DNA of 22,451 bases. Source: a virus. Below, in pieces: positions 6,715 through 15,623 of the stretch (within the stretch, counting starts at the first letter, position 1; each line of letters starts with the position of its first letter). The position numbers and the translations under genes are program-made. The notes beneath the pieces were generated by a model. That model worked only from the letters and a program-made list of their open reading frames with translations, was not told the origin of the DNA and ran no database searches. The stretch spans positions 1 through 22,451 of the IMG/VR virus record IMGVR_UViG_3300043544_000240, one strand, 5' to 3'.

Positions 6715-9700
6715 TTAGCCACCCTTTGCATAAGATACATTCTTGACTTTTACACCTACTTGATAAATAACTTGGTCAACAATCTTATTAATATCAATAT
6801 CAGCTACTTGGTCTACATAGATGTTTAGATTATTTATAGTTATTTCTTTTGAAACTTCATTAGTAGCTACTCCACTTACAGTTGTTGGAGTAGGGTTTAT
6901 CCCGACAACTGCATCTCTTATTTCTTTTAAATAGCTTGTCATCTGCTCAAAATATGAAGGGAGGAGATTTAGAGAATTCAAGGGGGCAAGAAGTTGCTTA
7001 AATCCCTCAAGAGCATTTCCAGTTAAATTCGTTATTGATATGGGTTGGTCCTTTTTCTTTTCTTCTTCAACTGGTTTTGCTTCTCCTGTTGATTGATACA
7101 TTTCATCTGCAGCTTGACTCATGGCGTCTGCAGCATCTATTAATTTCTGCCCTATTCCACCAAGTAGCCAATCAAGGGGCTTTAAAAGATAGCCTATCAT
7201 CTTAATTACGAACGCTAAGGCTTTTGTGAACGCAAATATTACAGGTTTGAGAACAGTATTCCAATAAGCTAAAAAAACTTTCCCAATTAACGTAATCACC
7301 ATACCGATAATTTCAGCTAATACTTTAAAGAGAGGCACAAAGGGTTTTAATACATCCATAAAAATTTTTAAGATATTGGCAAGGAATTGAAGTATAGGAA
7401 TGATTATAGGTTTAAGAATTGATTTCCCTATCTGTATAAAATCCTTAAGAAAGCCTTCGTATACGTCTTGGAACATTCCTGCAAACTCGCCTAATACTGC
7501 GACAAGACCTTGCGAAATAAGACCACCGATAAAAGAGCCAATTGGTCCTCCCATCAGTCCTCCTATTAAGTCTATTGTTCCTGCTTTTATAAAACCGCCT
7601 ACCTGTGCTGCAGCCTTTCCTATTGGTGTTTCCTTAAAGAATTTGTCCCATACTCCTTTTACTTTATCAAACATAGAGGCTAATCCTTCTCTTATGCTTT
7701 CTATGCTAATTTCTTTTTTAAGAGAAGTCCCGGGGAAAAGAGTAATAATCTTTTGAGAAAAGAAATCCTTAATTTCTTTAGCGTTTATGCCTAAAGTCTT
7801 ACTTAGTCCATTAGCTACGTCATCTAATTTTTTAGTTGGGTCTAACAAAAGACGAACGCTATTTATAATATTGTCTGTCCCGCTTCCTAATACTTTGAAG
7901 AGAAGTTTGAACCCATTAATTATGCCCTGTATTTTTTCAGGACCTACTATTTGGCCCATTATATCTGATATTCCTTTGGCCATACTTACAAGCCCACCTA
8001 CTACCTTTCCTATGTATCCTTCTTCGGGGAATGCTATATTGGCTATTTTTTCACCTGCGAGTGCTTTTGTTATTTCGTTCCCCATAGTATTTGCTGTAGC
8101 TTCCCAATTCTTAGGGTCTAAAAGGGCTTGGAAAGCTTCGTTCTCTTGTGTCCCTTTAATCCAGAAATTCAACATTTTTAGGGCAAAATTAGAAATAGGC
8201 TGTAATAAGCCTTTATCTATCATTGGTTTAATGTTGTTCCATATATTATTGATATCTTCCCAAGGAGTTTTCTCTTTTCTGCCTCCAAGTAGCCAGAGAG
8301 CTATGTTGGAGAAGCTTTTGGCCATATTTTCTATATTATTCTTGAAATTTGCCATGAATGTGTCTACAAGCCCTTCTTGGAATGCTTTTCTGAAATAATC
8401 TGCGATACCTATTGCGGCACCTTTAAAGTCCCCTTGTGCCCAATCGCTCATAGCTTGTATAAGGGTATTCTTGGCATCAACGAGCCATTTATTAGCAACT
8501 TGATTAATTTTATTTTGTGTCTCTATTAGGTTGTCTAATTTGTTATTTAATTTTTCAATCCCTTGATAGTATATTTCTGCTGTCGCATCTAAGCCATTTA
8601 TAAGGTTTGATAAGACATTTTCAAGCTCTTGTAAGACTTCAGCACTGCCTCCACTTTCCTGCCACTTGCTTAAGAGGTTCATTATTTGAGTTCTTGTCTC
8701 CTCAGAAATCTCTGGAGCACCTAAAATATTCTTTAAATTTTCAGGAACTGTTCCTGATTTTATCATTTCAAGAGCTTGTTGTATTTGAATGCTTAAATCT
8801 TTGGCTTTTTGATATTGTTTTATATATTCATCAATTGCTTTAGATATATCACTGTTTTTAGCAAGTAGTTTGCTTATTGAGGCACTATACTTCTGCATTT
8901 TTTCTATATATTCCTTAGTAGAGATGCTTCCTTCTTGAAAATCTTTTTCAGCCTTTTCAATGTCATTGATAAGGTCGTCAATTTGTTTGTTTAAATTATT
9001 GTAATTAAGCGTTTCTGTTGAGCCTATTTGAAAATACTTAGTAAGGTTTGCTATAAAACCTTTAGCAGATTTAATTTCAGCTAAAGGTGAGAACATGACT
9101 CTTAAGAAAGAGTCAACAAATTCAGGGAGCAATTTGAGCTCTGTTTTAGATGATATTTTACCAGAACCAAGCTTCGGTGAGGATTCTTTCTTTTGTTCTT
9201 CTTTCACTCTTTGTTCTAAAGTATTTTGAATTTGGGGTAGATATTTATTTGCTATTTCCATGGTTCTATTAATTTTGCTAAGCGCATCTTGCCCCGCCAA
9301 AGCCATTACTGCTTCTCCTAAAGCATGTTCTCCGCTAATTTTATTCTTATTATCAGTCTTACCGCTAAAATAAGACTTTATTGTATTCCAAAGCTGGTTA
9401 GCTGTCATCACACCCTTGTGGTAATTTTCAAAAGCACTCATGAGTTTATCGTATAATTGCTGTTTAGCACCATAATTCATTAAAAAGTCTTTTAGTTCTG
9501 TTAGACCTTTTTGTTTCATAATAAGTTCAAAACCCGGAAGTTCCTGCGCAGTAAGCTTTCCGCCTCTCCAAGACTTAATAATATTTTCAAATTCTATTAA
9601 AAATTTTTTTAAGGCCTCTTGCCCTTCTTCACCTTCCTTTAACAAAGACCCTAAATTAGAAAAGGAAACATATTGAGAGGAACGCAATAAAGACCAATTT

Positions 9701-12700
9701 ATGTCTAAAGCAGGTTTTTTAATTTCTTCTTGGAGCAACTTAAGAAAATCTTGTCTTGCCTGTCTTAAGTTCTTATCATCTGTTTCTACTATTTCTAATA
9801 TTTTCTGCACTTTAGAAGGCTTGTTTAGTATTGTTATTTGGTTTTGCGCAGATGATTTAATATTTGATAGATGTTTTTCTATTATATTCATAACTCCTAT
9901 TTCTTGTATTAAGGAAATTCTTATGCTATCTAATAAATTAGTTTGTCTTTTAATCTCTGGTATTTCTATTTTTCTCTCTATATCTATTTTCTTGGGAAGG
10001 TCTCTTATTGTATTTTCCCATCTTTCAATAGCCGCCAAAATGCCAGTTCTAAAGGCATTTCCTGCGTTAATGAGTATAGTTCCCAGAGCTCTTGCCCAGT
10101 CCTCAAGATTTTCTACATTCCCGCCTACTATTCCACCTTCTGCATATCCTACTACTCCTAACTTCTTTCCAGTTTCTATCCAAAGCTGTAGAGCTCTTTT
10201 CCTTCTATGAGAAGATAACGGAATAATTGCCTCAGGTCCTTCCTCACCTACAAGAGCAAGATGAGGCTTACTTGTAATGGTTCCAGTAGCATGTCCTCCC
10301 GAGAAAGCGGAGGCAAGTATATAAATCAAATCTCTTTGCGCAGAAATAAGGTCTATTTGTTGCTTAAGCCATTCTGTTAGTTGTCCTGACATTGCCTTCC
10401 CGAAGAATGTATCTATAAAGCCATATATAGGAGCAAATGCAACTTGGAAGAAGTTCCTTACCTCGGATTTAGCTATATCTCCAAGGGTATCAAAGAAGCC
10501 CTTCCCAAATCTCTGAATAAGACTTTGAGGTTTGTCTATACCAAGAGATTCTTGGATGGCAGAGTTCAATCTATCAATAGCAGATGTAAAAGCATTAGTT
10601 AGAGCACTCTGAAAATCACTAACAATCCCTTTAAACGTTTGGCTCAAATAAAGAAGGAATTGTTTATAATATTTACTAAGGTCTAATCCGCCTTTACCTG
10701 TAAGAAGTCTTGCTATATCACCGCCAAGACTGTATGCAAAAGAATTAAGCAAATTAACTATTCCTTCACCTATTTTATTAATATCGTCATATAACTTCTT
10801 CGCTCCTGCGCTTAGTCCTTCCCTATAAGCGTTTATAAATTCAGAACCCCAATATTCTAAATTAGAAAGAGGCCCCTTTTCTGCTGGAGAATGGCCACCG
10901 CCAAAATATTTAAATAGTTCCTCTGCAATATCCATTGCAATCTTTCTTGCACGGGTAGCTCCTATTTTCATGCCTTCTGCATAAGAATCCATGAAATCTT
11001 CGCCAGCGTTCTTTGCTAATTCAGAAAATTGTTTAAACGTATCTTGCATGTCTTTTAGGAATTCCGAAGAACCTTTAGAGGCATTTTGAAATGCTTTATT
11101 TATACCCATTATCTCAGGAAGAATAAGGGCTAAGGCGGTAATAAAAGCTACTACGGCCAGTGCTACAGGTCCTAAAGTGACACCAAATATAGTTATTCCC
11201 GCAGCTGCACCTGTTGCCGCAGCTTGAAGTGAGGTAAATATTCCTTTGAGAATTACAAAAGCTCTTAGAACACTTGCTACAAGAAAAAGAGCAGAACCTG
11301 CAATTACAGCTACTTTTGCTATGATAAAAAGATAACTAATTATGTCCCCACTTACATTTTTAAAAATCATACCGAAAACTCTATAGGATGTTGCAAGGTC
11401 TCTTAGCCAATTAAAGAAGGGAATAAGAGCTCCTGCAGCACCAATAATTATCTGATTTACAAATCCTTGCCATGCATTACGCATATCTTTTAGCGCTTCC
11501 ATTAATTTTAGAGCATTTGCTTGGTCTTCATCACTGAATACTAAACCAAACATTTTAGCTTTATTTAATCGTTCTGTAATTTTTTCAATATCTTCAGCCA
11601 TAAATAAGGCAAGTCTTGTATTCTCACGGCCGAATATCTTTGTTAAATATGCGCTAATTTGGGCTGAAGAAACACCTGCCTCTCTCAGGGCATGTATACG
11701 GGCAATAAGCTGTCCTAAAATATTTTCAAAGGGTAGCATCATCCCTGAGCTATCTAATATTTGTATACCTAATTCTTGAAGAGCCCTTACACCTACCCCA
11801 CTACCATGAGCTGCATCGTAAATTTTACGAGAGAGAACTGCAAGTGAAGTTGCAAAATGGTCTATACTTTCGTTGGAATAATCAAGAGCTATTCTTAAAG
11901 CTTGAATGTTTTGCGTAGACATTCCTAATCTTTCTGAAAACCATTGGGTCTGTAGAGCGTATTCAGCTACATTACTAAATGCTCTTTCAATTCCCTCAGA
12001 AATCGGTCTGAAAGCAAACATTAAAGAAAGACCAGTCCACGTTAGATTGCGGAAGATATAGTTAAGGTCTCTGGTCTGGCTTATAAAATCTTTGACAGGG
12101 TTCGGAATTGTTTTAGGAATTGCTTCTGACTCAAGAGCTTCTTTTAATCCTAATAGTTTATTCTTTGTATTTTCAATTTCCTGTTGTAACTCTTCATGGG
12201 TTAAGGAATAGTCCTTGAGAAAATTTCCAGCACTGTATAATTCCGTGCCATATGTTCGTATAGCATGCACTGCTTTTTTAGTAAATTCGGGGCTACGTGC
12301 CATCTGTTCCCCAACAGCTTCAACTCTTTCACCTAATTCTCTCAGGTTATTTAGGGCTAATTCTATATTCTCTCTTGATGATAATTGGGACAGCGTAGTA
12401 TCTATATTTTGATATAATTCCATTATCTGTTGTTTCAAATTACCTGTTAGAGGCCTGAACAGAGCACCCATATTCTCCAGTTTTTTGAAGTTTTCTAACA
12501 CAGCCTCTTGAGGAAGACCTAACCTCTGACTTATTTCTTGGAATATTTTTTCCCCTCTATAGCCTACTTTAAGAGCTCTGTAATATTCATTTTGTATCTG
12601 AGCAAGTCTTTCTATTTCACTTAGATTATCTTTAATACTACTTGTTGCCTGTGCAGTATCCTGAGCTGATTTTGAGGCTCCCAGCATAGAACTCGCTACA

Positions 12701-13992
12701 CCTTCCGCTTGCTCCCTTGCTGCAACTAACTGCTCTACAAACTCAGCATAACTTTCTTTAGATATTTCCGGGACCAGTTCCACAGACTGTTGAATAGGAA
12801 CAATCTGTTGTAGAGTAGGTTGAATAGGGACAATATGTCGTGGGACAGGTTCTACTGGGACAAGTGCTCTTCTTTGAGGGAGAGCTCCTAAATAAGCTTC
12901 TGAAATGGCTCTATATTGGGGGAGAAAACGCTCTTTCTGAGAAGAAATATATTGATATAAGTTCTGAAGCTGGGTTAATAAATCTTCAGGTATAAGTCCA
13001 CGGAATGTAGCTCCAAGATACTTACTTATATTAAGTCTTAATTGCTCAATTTGACTAATAAATTTATCATAAATATTGAATACTTGTCTTACTTCTTCCT
13101 CGGTTTGAGGCGTCCCAGCTAACCCGCCTTCAGCTATCGGTTTTTCTAAAAGGCTACTAAATTCCTCAAGTGCTTTTTGATAGGTTACATTTACATTTTG
13201 AATTGTATTTTGTATATCTTGAATATATTGAGGAATAGTTTTATTTAATAAGGCTTCTCGATATTGTTTAAGAGCATCTATTCGCTCCTTAACAAATGGA
13301 GTTATTTCTTTAACAAATTGTTGATACTCAGGACTCTCAGTATGTAGACTTTCTAAACTTGCAGTAAGCCCCCCAAATTTCTCTACTGCACTCTGTGCTA
13401 ACTTATCGGCTTCTCTATAAAATTTAAATATGAGTGCTCTTTGCTTTACAGTTTCTTTTAACCCCTTAAACGTTTGAGAAAGCTCAGGAGTAAGATTAGA
13501 AAGTTGCCCCTTATATTGCTGGGCAAATTGAACAAGCTCCTGAACAGACTTTTGTAAATTTTCTTTTGCTTGTTCTCTTAAGTATCGTATTGAGCCATAT
13601 TCAGATACTAAATGAGCTAAATCTTCGCCAATTAATCCTGATGTCTCACTTCCTGTAATTGATTTATATAACTCATTGAGCTGTTGCGCTAATTTAGAAG
13701 TCTCTGCAATTCTTATCTCTCGTAATTTCTTAATATATCCTACATATTCTCTACCAAGCTCTCCAGCCTTGAGCTCTTTTTCTACCTCTTCTAAAGGCAT
13801 TAAGCCTCTTCTTCTAAGAGTAGAGGCGGAGGGGGTTTCTTTTGATTTAAAACTAAATACGCTCTCCTGTTGGCGGGCAACTTCCTGAAGTTCTTTAATA
13901 CTTTTCTTTGCTTCCTCAACAGTCCTTTTTATCTCAGGAGTTGCCCTATTAATAACATCTATAATTATTTGGAGCCTATATTCTCCTGCCAT
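6715..13992 (-). CDS. Tail tape measure protein, very long (2425 residues)
   Basis: This protein sets tail length and travels inside the tail tube. It is the largest gene here, and its position after the chaperone pair and before Dit is diagnostic. Residues 1-650 are charged and helical, with long predicted coiled coils broken by proline-rich decapeptide repeats near 371-401. Hydrophobic stretches near 880-965 (IAKVAVIAGSALFLVA and on) and near 2137-2300 are typical tape measure membrane-active segments. Two family motifs are visible: GGGHSPAEKGPLSN near residue 1037 and LALVGEEGPEAIIPLS near 1252. I see no lytic transglycosylase or peptidase motif. The start follows AGGAGGGGG by two bases and lies nine bases after the 64-codon chaperone frame. 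At the roughly 0.15 nm per residue known for siphophages, it predicts a tail near 360 nm. Confidence 0.95.
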   Translation of the reverse strand: MAGEYRLQIIIDVINRATPEIKRTVEEAKKSIKELQEVARQQESVFSFKSKETPSASTLRRRGLMPLEEVEKELKAGELGREYVGYIKKLREIRIAETSKLAQQLNELYKSITGSETSGLIGEDLAHLVSEYGSIRYLREQAKENLQKSVQELVQFAQQYKGQLSNLTPELSQTFKGLKETVKQRALIFKFYREADKLAQSAVEKFGGLTASLESLHTESPEYQQFVKEITPFVKERIDALKQYREALLNKTIPQYIQDIQNTIQNVNVTYQKALEEFSSLLEKPIAEGGLAGTPQTEEEVRQVFNIYDKFISQIEQLRLNISKYLGATFRGLIPEDLLTQLQNLYQYISSQKERFLPQYRAISEAYLGALPQRRALVPVEPVPRHIVPIQPTLQQIVPIQQSVELVPEISKESYAEFVEQLVAAREQAEGVASSMLGASKSAQDTAQATSSIKDNLSEIERLAQIQNEYYRALKVGYRGEKIFQEISQRLGLPQEAVLENFKKLENMGALFRPLTGNLKQQIMELYQNIDTTLSQLSSRENIELALNNLRELGERVEAVGEQMARSPEFTKKAVHAIRTYGTELYSAGNFLKDYSLTHEELQQEIENTKNKLLGLKEALESEAIPKTIPNPVKDFISQTRDLNYIFRNLTWTGLSLMFAFRPISEGIERAFSNVAEYALQTQWFSERLGMSTQNIQALRIALDYSNESIDHFATSLAVLSRKIYDAAHGSGVGVRALQELGIQILDSSGMMLPFENILGQLIARIHALREAGVSSAQISAYLTKIFGRENTRLALFMAEDIEKITERLNKAKMFGLVFSDEDQANALKLMEALKDMRNAWQGFVNQIIIGAAGALIPFFNWLRDLATSYRVFGMIFKNVSGDIISYLFIIAKVAVIAGSALFLVASVLRAFVILKGIFTSLQAAATGAAAGITIFGVTLGPVALAVVAFITALALILPEIMGINKAFQNASKGSSEFLKDMQDTFKQFSELAKNAGEDFMDSYAEGMKIGATRARKIAMDIAEELFKYFGGGHSPAEKGPLSNLEYWGSEFINAYREGLSAGAKKLYDDINKIGEGIVNLLNSFAYSLGGDIARLLTGKGGLDLSKYYKQFLLYLSQTFKGIVSDFQSALTNAFTSAIDRLNSAIQESLGIDKPQSLIQRFGKGFFDTLGDIAKSEVRNFFQVAFAPIYGFIDTFFGKAMSGQLTEWLKQQIDLISAQRDLIYILASAFSGGHATGTITSKPHLALVGEEGPEAIIPLSSHRRKRALQLWIETGKKLGVVGYAEGGIVGGNVENLEDWARALGTILINAGNAFRTGILAAIERWENTIRDLPKKIDIERKIEIPEIKRQTNLLDSIRISLIQEIGVMNIIEKHLSNIKSSAQNQITILNKPSKVQKILEIVETDDKNLRQARQDFLKLLQEEIKKPALDINWSLLRSSQYVSFSNLGSLLKEGEEGQEALKKFLIEFENIIKSWRGGKLTAQELPGFELIMKQKGLTELKDFLMNYGAKQQLYDKLMSAFENYHKGVMTANQLWNTIKSYFSGKTDNKNKISGEHALGEAVMALAGQDALSKINRTMEIANKYLPQIQNTLEQRVKEEQKKESSPKLGSGKISSKTELKLLPEFVDSFLRVMFSPLAEIKSAKGFIANLTKYFQIGSTETLNYNNLNKQIDDLINDIEKAEKDFQEGSISTKEYIEKMQKYSASISKLLAKNSDISKAIDEYIKQYQKAKDLSIQIQQALEMIKSGTVPENLKNILGAPEISEETRTQIMNLLSKWQESGGSAEVLQELENVLSNLINGLDATAEIYYQGIEKLNNKLDNLIETQNKINQVANKWLVDAKNTLIQAMSDWAQGDFKGAAIGIADYFRKAFQEGLVDTFMANFKNNIENMAKSFSNIALWLLGGRKEKTPWEDINNIWNNIKPMIDKGLLQPISNFALKMLNFWIKGTQENEAFQALLDPKNWEATANTMGNEITKALAGEKIANIAFPEEGYIGKVVGGLVSMAKGISDIMGQIVGPEKIQGIINGFKLLFKVLGSGTDNIINSVRLLLDPTKKLDDVANGLSKTLGINAKEIKDFFSQKIITLFPGTSLKKEISIESIREGLASMFDKVKGVWDKFFKETPIGKAAAQVGGFIKAGTIDLIGGLMGGPIGSFIGGLISQGLVAVLGEFAGMFQDVYEGFLKDFIQIGKSILKPIIIPILQFLANILKIFMDVLKPFVPLFKVLAEIIGMVITLIGKVFLAYWNTVLKPVIFAFTKALAFVIKMIGYLLKPLDWLLGGIGQKLIDAADAMSQAADEMYQSTGEAKPVEEEKKKDQPISITNLTGNALEGFKQLLAPLNSLNLLPSYFEQMTSYLKEIRDAVVGINPTPTTVSGVATNEVSKEITINNLNIYVDQVADIDINKIVDQVIYQVGVKVKNVSYAKGG
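12790..12879 (-). repeat. Three degenerate 30-bp tandem repeats inside the tape measure gene
   Basis: Three head-to-tail units begin at 12790, 12820 and 12850. The first two share ttgaatagg-acaat-tgt on the plus strand; the third keeps only tgggaca and the tail. In the tape measure protein they encode decapeptides ending in VPVE, IVPIQ and IVPIQ, rich in Pro, Val, Ile and Gln (near residues 371-401). The period is exactly ten codons, so the frame is kept. The segment probably forms a flexible linker between coiled-coil blocks. Confidence 0.65.
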
Positions 13993-14001
13993 TGCCCCCT
14001 C

Positions 14002-14196
14002 CTATCTGAATAATAATAGCCAAGCGGGGCATACAAAACCCCCATCCTTGGAAAGCTCCTTTGCCTGCTCAGAGTCATTCTCTATGCCCCGCATCATTAT
14101 TTCAAAATTCAGCGCAAATTCTAATAGACCAAGCTCTAATATTTCAGAGGGAAGCTTATGATATCGCCTCGCCATCTGGTCTATTAGAAGCGGCAT
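14002..14196 (-). CDS. Tail assembly chaperone, second frame (GT-type extension)
   Basis: A 64-codon frame overlapping the end of the upstream chaperone gene and shifted +1 to it. The sequence (RRYHKLPSEILELGLLEFAL, then a short acidic helix) has the y-lPseil-l pattern typical of the second half of siphophage tail chaperones (lambda T region, or its equivalent in Gram-positive phages). These C-terminal extensions bind the tape measure protein and recruit tail tube subunits. The frame could be made as a fusion by frameshifting, giving about 196 residues. It could also be translated alone from the ATG at 14196, which has GAGGAG four bases ahead. It ends nine bases before the tape measure start. 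The chaperone role is well supported by position; the mode of expression is open. Confidence 0.72.
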   Translation of the reverse strand: MPLLIDQMARRYHKLPSEILELGLLEFALNFEIMMRGIENDSEQAKELSKDGGFVCPAWLLLFR

Positions 14197-14593
14197 TTCG
14201 CTCCTCAGGAAAGGGAGCGTATTCTAACTTCTCCTCTTGTGTAGTTGGTAGACCACTGAACTTCATTATCTCGTTAAATAATTCTGTGCTGTCCTGTTCC
14301 GTTAGTTCGTATATTGATAGTTCTTCATCACTGCATTCCTCAGGAGACTTTTTAACTATCTTGGGCTCTATAACTCCTTGTATGATTATTTCATCCATGT
14401 AGTCTACAATTTTGTCATATCCTACATTTTGAACTATAGTTTCAGGATTACTATCTTCAAATACTCCAATAGGTAAATACGATGCTTTTACTACATCTCT
14501 TACTCTGACTTTTCTTATTACAAAAGAATATCCCGAGGAAAGCACAACTTCTTTTCTTAGTTGTTTCCTATACTCAGAAGGTTTAACAGCCAT
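14156..14593 (-). CDS. Tail assembly chaperone, first frame (G-type)
   Basis: A 145-residue acidic protein in the position of lambda gpG, between tail tube and tape measure. It shows the usual pattern of this family: an N-terminal PSEYRKQLRKEVVLSSGYSF, then IRKVRVRDV, a segment ending in IIQGVIEPKIV, and a late EQDSTELFNEIMKFSGL helix before a low-complexity tail. The chaperone binds the tape measure protein during tail assembly and is not part of the virion in characterised phages. The last 14 codons overlap the second chaperone frame. The start is an ATG behind GTGAGGTGA, 13 bases after the tail tube stop. If frameshifting occurs at CCC (residue Pro127), a minority product near 196 residues is predicted, as in most long-tailed phages. 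Confidence 0.82.
   Translation of the reverse strand: MAVKPSEYRKQLRKEVVLSSGYSFVIRKVRVRDVVKASYLPIGVFEDSNPETIVQNVGYDKIVDYMDEIIIQGVIEPKIVKKSPEECSDEELSIYELTEQDSTELFNEIMKFSGLPTTQEEKLEYAPFPEERNAASNRPDGEAIS
14208..14215 (-). promoter_or_regulatory. Candidate +1 programmed frameshift site CCCTTTCC
   Basis: In the upstream chaperone frame this reads CCC TTT CC. A +1 slip of the Pro tRNA (CCC to CCT) or of the Phe tRNA (TTT to TTC) keeps pairing and enters the 64-codon frame. The +1 frame is only open after a TAG at 14226-14224, and the zero frame stops at 14158-14156, so any shift must lie in this roughly 70-base stretch. No XXXYYYZ -1 heptamer would reach the correct frame. A -2 shift would also work geometrically. 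Confidence 0.45.
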
Positions 14594-14606: not shown

Positions 14607-15623
14607 TTATGATTGCTTACTTACAACTATCATTAATTCGTCATTAGAACTGGTCCCTTGATATGCGGTAAAATTCATCGTAAAATTAAGAGGATTAGGA
14701 CCAGATACATTTGGTGTTTCACCTGTTATTGCTATTTTAGGGAGAGTTATAGAAGCTTTGAACACATTAGTTTGAATAAAGGAAGCTGCTGTTTCAATTG
14801 ACAGAGCAATAGTAGAAGCGCTTAAAAATTTCTCATACCATTTTGTGTTTTCAAACATAAGCTCAAGTCTTCCTGTAACTTCTCTTCTTCCCTCGGGCAA
14901 ATCAGTTACCACAGCTACTAACTTATTAGGCGTTATATCTGAAGTAGTAATATTCATTACGTTATTAAAGTATCTATCAGTTATGAGATTATGGTTAATT
15001 GTAATTTCAAAGCTCCTAACTTTCACGGCTACTGCTGTCCCATCATTTAACGTAATATTTGAAAACCAAAATTTAGTAACACCTAAAGAAGGAATGGTTA
15101 TAGTCTGAGAGGTAGTAGAAAGCTCTTCCCTCTGCCCCTGAATACTTACTCTTAATCTCACTATACCATTTTCTTCACCTGTTATTGTAAACTGGTTAAC
15201 TTTACAGCCAGAGTAATAGAAATAGTTTCTTTGACTACTCGCATTAGATGTATTTCTGTCTACCAAAAAGCTTAGAGAAGGGAGAGTATCTGCGAGAGTC
15301 CATGTAACAGTATTATTACTTGTATTAACACTTACATTCCCCATACAGGCTTTCATTAAAATTACAAAGGGGTCAGTAGTAGATATAGCAGGTATAAAAA
15401 AGGGTAATTCAATATCTCCAGAAACAGACATACGAGCTGGAGGTTCGTAGTCATATAATCTGCTTCTTGTGGCTGGTATTATCTCTACTCTTGCAGTTTC
15501 TAATGCTGCTCTAATACTCTCCGAAATAAAGGGTAAAGAAGCAGTAATAGAAGTTGGTCTTGTCCCAAAACTTGCTTCTTCTGCCCAAGCAATTTTAGCT
15601 AAACTACCTAATGGAACTGGCAT
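14607..15623 (-). CDS. Major tail tube protein
   Basis: A 338-residue, nearly all-beta protein. The N-terminus, GSLAKIAWAEEASFGTRPT, is the classic opening of Gram-positive-type phage tail tube proteins, in which a short strand is followed by an e-tfGt motif. Later strands include RMSVSGDIELPF, QFTITGEENGIVRLRVSIQG, FEITINHNL and EVTGRLELMF, the beta-sandwich pattern of tube hexamers; the second half repeats the pattern, consistent with the larger, two-part tube proteins. It would stack in hexameric rings around the tape measure to form the DNA conduit. The gene precedes the chaperone pair, the standard place for a tube gene. The start is an ATG with AAGGAGGGGA about eight bases ahead, lying in the end of the 60-residue gene. 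No sheath gene accompanies it, which indicates a non-contractile tail. Confidence 0.85.
   Translation of the reverse strand: MPVPLGSLAKIAWAEEASFGTRPTSITASLPFISESIRAALETARVEIIPATRSRLYDYEPPARMSVSGDIELPFFIPAISTTDPFVILMKACMGNVSVNTSNNTVTWTLADTLPSLSFLVDRNTSNASSQRNYFYYSGCKVNQFTITGEENGIVRLRVSIQGQREELSTTSQTITIPSLGVTKFWFSNITLNDGTAVAVKVRSFEITINHNLITDRYFNNVMNITTSDITPNKLVAVVTDLPEGRREVTGRLELMFENTKWYEKFLSASTIALSIETAASFIQTNVFKASITLPKIAITGETPNVSGPNPLNFTMNFTAYQGTSSNDELMIVVSKQS

Follow-up and report, generated by a model that had tools for sequence, protein, structure and literature searches.

Introduction

The gpG/gpGT pair of phage lambda and the tail assembly chaperone frameshift family around it are treated by Xu, Hendrix and Duda (2004), cited here by way of other papers. 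Frameshifts in tail chaperone genes, +1 cases included, are already known, and a +1 shift is regarded as very likely in the tail chaperone of the haloarchaeal myovirus HSTV-2 (PMC5009743). The Listeria phages PSA, A118 and A500 have +1 sites at CCC (PMC5009743). Another group of +1 sites has been described from viruses of eukaryotes. In influenza PA-X the +1 shift was located by mass spectrometry at UCC_UUU_CGU, where three slip models give the same peptide, and improved pairing of tRNA(Phe) on passing from UUU to UUC was put forward as an argument (PMC3498833). The motif UUU_CGN was proposed for plant amalgaviruses (PMC5052127). Firth and colleagues predicted a UUU_C-based +1 class from eukaryotic viruses, and left open its use in cellular gene expression (PMC3498833).

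The present analysis concerns a stretch of viral DNA of 22,451 nucleotides (IMG/VR virus record IMGVR_UViG_3300043544_000240, positions 1 to 22,451), called the window below. One of its loci is very probably a tail assembly chaperone pair of the lambda G/GT type, in which a +1 shift at CCC_UUU_CCU, most likely by movement of the P-site tRNA from UUU to UUC, would yield a G-T fusion.

Anatomy of the locus

The minus strand of the window carries a head and tail module composed of terminase, portal, protease, capsid, tail tube, G, T, tape measure and more tail genes. The features needed for the argument are the following.

14607..15623, minus strand: tail tube protein, directly upstream of G (Pfam Phage_tube_2, E 2.6e-31)
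14156..14593, minus strand: G, putative short tail assembly chaperone, zero frame, from ATG 14593 to TAA 14158-14156, 145 aa
14224..14226, minus strand: TAG stop of the +1 frame; a shift has to take place downstream of it
14002..14223, minus strand: T, putative C-terminal chaperone domain, +1 frame, open from 14223, 73 residues plus stop
14207..14215, minus strand: candidate slip region CCC_TTT_CCT, with CCC 14215-14213, TTT 14212-14210 and CCT 14209-14207; UUU_C is 14212-14209
14194..14206, minus strand: GAGGAG (14206-14201) and, after four bases, ATG 14196-14194, a rival internal start of T giving 64 aa
14156..14158, minus strand: TAA that ends G in the zero frame; a shift has to take place upstream of it
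14002..14593, minus strand: predicted G-T fusion, 196 aa, by a +1 shift at UUU_C
6715..13992, minus strand: tape measure protein, 2425 aa, directly downstream of T (PHROG 8462, E 2e-25)

An earlier note on this DNA had placed TAG, TAA and ATG at these positions, with CCC-TTT-C inside the overlap and GAGGAG four bases before the ATG, and all of this holds on re-reading, as does its description of T as an overlapping frame lying +1 to G, with the shift confined between TAG 14226-14224 and TAA 14158-14156. The anatomy of the locus is established to this extent. A +1 step introduced in silico at TTT_C gave a fusion of 196 aa containing ...EYAPFLRSEMPLL..., in agreement with the product of about 196 residues that had been foreseen. 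The tape measure protein is long for its gene class and implies a long tail if the usual length scaling holds.

The order tube-G-T-tape measure is the location expected of a chaperone pair. The family of G was approached by sequence and by structure. Sequence matches were weak: DUF7391 was matched by G in six of seven family members, and the G homologue in contig L029 matched the tail assembly chaperone family PHROG 4336 (5.8e-5). An AlphaFold model of G, of medium confidence (pLDDT 67.5), matched tail assembly chaperones of mycobacteriophages in BFVD (E 1e-5, probability 1.00, TM 0.53), and these model matches point to a chaperone fold for G; a fold search of the PDB with the same model gave no match. 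No matches to the window G and T were obtained by tblastn against cultured phages, two scans of genome contigs found no relative, and a search for phage-encoded tRNA found none. Marinitoga phages have a tail tube distantly related to that of the window, and two genes occupy the chaperone position there.

Conservation of the frame arrangement and of the site

Three close homologues were found among IMG/VR contigs, L005, L006 and L007, with G identities of 97, 87 and 63 percent, respectively. The +1 arrangement is kept in all three and CCC_TTT_CCT is unchanged. Where all four sequences encode the same amino acid, the codon shows a synonymous change in 33 of 43 cases upstream, versus 2 of 7 at the site and the first following codons.

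More distant relatives were reached by a tail-tube profile, which led to L024, and by T-domain profiles, which led to the further IMG/VR loci; the signature YHKLP[STN]EI of the T family is common to the window and these loci. L024 has a +1 pair with TCC_TTT_CTT, and its +1-frame stop TAG lies only two bases before TCC_TTT_C, so that almost no room is left for a shift elsewhere. L035 has a +1 pair with TCC_TTT_CCA, and L096 and L097 have +1 pairs with TTT_TTT_CGC. Thus all eight +1 members of the T family in IMG/VR, the window included, have an in-frame UUU_C at the junction, preceded by CCC, UCC or UUU, and on this comparative evidence T would be joined to G by slippage at a conserved site. 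The arrangement also bears on the chance, which we regard as negligible, that an in-frame G-T gene was split by an error of sequencing or assembly. The window is a metagenome contig, and single-base errors can create false frameshifts; however, the +1 arrangement recurs in seven further contigs, in each of which G continues beyond the site as far as a stop of its own. L037-L045 and L094, with T in a -1 arrangement, bear canonical -1 sites instead, which counts in favour of the frameshift reading.

T is not bound to one mode of expression. It stands in a -1 arrangement in L037-L045, with G_GGA_AAG just before the G stop, and in L094, with A_AAA_AAA. Two more T-family loci in -1 arrangement are L036 3462-4147 and L046 3657-4228. 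A canonical -1 heptamer X_XXY_YYZ was considered for the overlap in the window and rejected, since T is +1 there and such sites were seen only in the -1 relatives. The T genes of L029-L033 start at their own ATG, overlapping or adjoining the G stop (e.g. L029 3401-4098, L033 622-1319). The same domain is therefore expressed by three routes in different phages: +1, -1 and an own start codon.

Given the last of these routes, translation of T in the window might begin at ATG 14196 with the help of GAGGAG and yield a free protein of 64 residues without any frameshift, as the earlier note had suggested as a competing explanation. Both elements are present, the SD-like GAGGAG lying four bases before the ATG; L005 has kept the ATG and the motif, and L006 the ATG. 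The position of the ATG is occupied by CTT in L007, ACA in L024 and CTG in L096 and L097, and because of this absence a free T is not accepted as the chief route. In L007 the following ATG has no SD at the normal distance, and a start there would remove conserved residues. Moreover, PFLRSE, encoded upstream of ATG 14196, corresponds to PFLKGD and PFFKGN, which lie within T proteins having their own start, and so the residues before ATG 14196 are most likely part of T. The ATG with its SD-like sequence may serve as an extra start in the three closest sequences, but as the principal source of T it is very unlikely. The alignment of homologues, which had been proposed for deciding between the two, establishes UUU_C as conserved and the internal ATG as not conserved, and favours frameshifting.

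Conservation of UUU_C is not wholly independent of the T protein. The phenylalanine, encoded by TTC in the T frame, is also a conserved T residue, and part of the conservation of CCTTTC may reflect this coding demand. NTT_Y at this place would still let the zero frame read ATT, CTT, GTT or TTT, with either C or T next, so that TTT_C in all +1 lineages exceeds what the T protein requires. Independent +1 lineages in the family of the window are few, about four, and stronger statistical support comes from the Herelleviridae.

Chaperone pairs of the Herelleviridae

A tblastn search of cultured phages with T of L035 gave a weak match only (E 0.6) to Bacillus phage Bobb. Profile comparison showed no homology, and the match was taken as a lead to the Herelleviridae sites, not as a sign of kinship. 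The Bobb pair reads AAC_TCC_TTT_CGA_AGC_TGA, with a +1-frame stop just upstream. Relatives of Bobb G occur in 564 phage records (hosts Staphylococcus, Listeria, Enterococcus, Bacillus, Lactobacillus and others), and 23 were sampled across them. Every one of the 23 has a +1 chaperone pair with an in-frame UUU_C, and in 22 exactly two sense codons separate UUU_C from the G stop. The earlier view that +1 chaperone pairs are rare is not borne out by this sample. The codon after UUU is CGN in 19 records, CAA in 3 and CTG in 1. That before it is ACC, AAC, ACG, ACA or CGA in many, with UUU_C invariant. In 11 of the 23 records a gap of only 14 nt is open to the shift, owing to a stop in the +1 frame. 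Outside the junction, 6 instances of TTT_C were counted over 3282 codons of the sampled G genes.

Slippage right after UUU is already marked in one GenBank record, that of Moonbeam, at position 48971, the last base of UUU; the records of Troll, Maine and LfeInf carry joined chaperone genes. In the Herelleviridae records L056, L059, L063, L064, L067 and L069 the T part of the chaperone goes under the name of RNA polymerase or its beta subunit, and PHROG 1316 bears an RNA polymerase name although it is the +1-frame C-terminal part of the chaperone pair.

Profile comparison of the window family with the Herelleviridae detected no homology of either G or T (hhalign probability 0.2). Convergence is thus a simpler reading than deep homology, and UUU_C would then have arisen in each family separately.

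The probable slip site

Among the 7210 codons of the window, TTT_C occurs in frame 21 times in all, and YCC_TTT_C only once, namely at the junction. A relative of 47 kb likewise has NCC_TTT_C in frame once in about 14100 codons, again at the junction. CCC_TTT_C at the junction is more than would be expected by chance. The site has UUU followed by C, in frame and at the frame junction, as in the +1 class of the PA-X type. CGN after UUU, a preference of that class and not a strict rule, is found in L096, L097 and 19 of 23 Herelleviridae; the window has CCU, L024 CUU and L035 CCA.

The earlier note had taken CCC TTT C as a whole for the slip site, and of this only the UUU_C part, present in eight of eight +1 members, was sustained. 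The shift could in principle be made by CCC in the P site (CCC_U), as at the sites of Listeria PSA, and not by UUU. A +1 slip of tRNA(Pro) on CCC is known (PMC5009743), and the four closest sequences all retain CCC. Beyond these, the codon is UCC in L024 and L035 and UUU in L096 and L097, and many Herelleviridae have ACC, AAC, ACG, ACA or CGA there, with no change in UUU_C. Re-pairing from UCC to CCU would also involve a mismatch at the first position, an argument made in PMC3498833. With the preceding codon so variable, UUU_C is the likely slip and CCC_U an improbable one. Both slips would give Ala-Pro-Phe-Leu; hence a peptide spanning the junction would prove the shift but not which codon slips, and UUU_C is favoured over CCC_U by conservation and not by the peptide.

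The same frame is also reached by a -2 slip, which is known from phage Mu (PMC3498833, PMC5009743) and had been named as an alternative to +1. CCC_UUU_CCU, however, offers no acceptable re-pairing two bases back, and the conserved C after UUU is left unexplained by -2, so that we consider this course highly improbable. A +1 slip at UUU_C, in comparison, would make use of that C.

Several possible aids to the shift were considered. A mechanism of the prfB type (CUU then a stop, with an SD three bases upstream) was rejected, there being no stop at the site; the nearest SD-like GAGGAG upstream of CCC ends 15 bases before it. Nor is there a nearby stop in the window to assist the shift, since seventeen sense codons remain before the G stop. 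Pausing at rare codons was dismissed as a cause because the A-site codon CCU is the commonest Pro codon of the window and CCC makes up 43 of its 254 Pro codons. A hairpin downstream of the site (z about -3.8 to -4.0) is present in the window and its two nearest homologues, L005 and L006. None was found in L007, where pairs are lost, or in L024, and no compensatory change was seen. Limited in this way to the three closest sequences, it was discarded as a stimulator, and no stimulator structure conserved among relatives was found.

Proposed expression of G and G-T

Most ribosomes would read G and stop at TAA 14158-14156, and a minority would slip one base forward at CCC_UUU_CCU. The likeliest step is a move of the P-site peptidyl-tRNA(Phe) from UUU to UUC while the next codon is awaited, UUC pairing better than UUU with the GAA anticodon of tRNA(Phe). 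The slipped ribosomes would go on to read T, and a G-T fusion of 196 residues would result. If the pair works as in lambda, G would form a coat on the tape measure protein, and tail tube subunits would be brought in by the T portion of the fusion. We infer from the comparison of sequences that shifting takes place and that it does so in a minority of ribosomes, and likewise the step in the P site and the function as chaperones.

Discussion

Taken together, the two sets of phages suggest that UUU_C, often as UUU_CGN, is a +1 signal of ribosomes in general. It has probably evolved at least twice independently in bacterial viruses for tail chaperones, once family-wide in Herelleviridae and once in the T family of the window, and would match a class that until now has been known from viruses of eukaryotes. 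In the open-access literature, to which the search was confined and in which Herelleviridae chaperone frameshifts were also looked for, no paper describing the UUU_C class in phages was found. The UUU_C signal is now placed at a quantitative, ratio-setting gene junction of bacterial viruses, in two chaperone families without detectable homology. Its carriers include cultured phages infecting Bacillus, Listeria, Enterococcus and Staphylococcus, which makes the mechanism testable. The analysis also offers an annotation rule for a junction left unjoined in most of the sampled records, and makes visible the expression of one T domain by three routes.

Compared with lambda, the locus has the same order tube-G-T-tape measure, a short G, an overlapping T frame before the tape measure gene and a G model resembling tail assembly chaperones. 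It differs from lambda and most others, which use -1 slippage at a heptamer, in being +1 with UUU_C. With Listeria PSA, A118 and A500 it would share +1 shifting in phage structural genes, and it has the same Pro codon CCC at the site, but those phages slip at CCC next to a stop or pseudoknot, and they do so in capsid and tail-shaft genes where the window has a chaperone pair. HSTV-2 resembles it in having a +1 chaperone pair, although its host is archaeal. The PA-X and amalgavirus sites are like it in shifting +1 on UUU_C; the likeness extends to seven identical bases, UCC_UUU_C, in L024 and L035, to UCC_UUU_CGA in Bobb and to UUU_CGC in L096 and L097. Those sites, however, are used by eukaryotic ribosomes in unrelated genes, and the next codon in the window is CCU, not CGN. 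The Herelleviridae (Bobb, Troll, Moonbeam, A511, Twort and the kayviruses) have, like the window, a +1 junction with an in-frame UUU_C. Their site is usually UUU_CGN, two sense codons short of the G stop, whereas the window has UUU_CCU and seventeen such codons.
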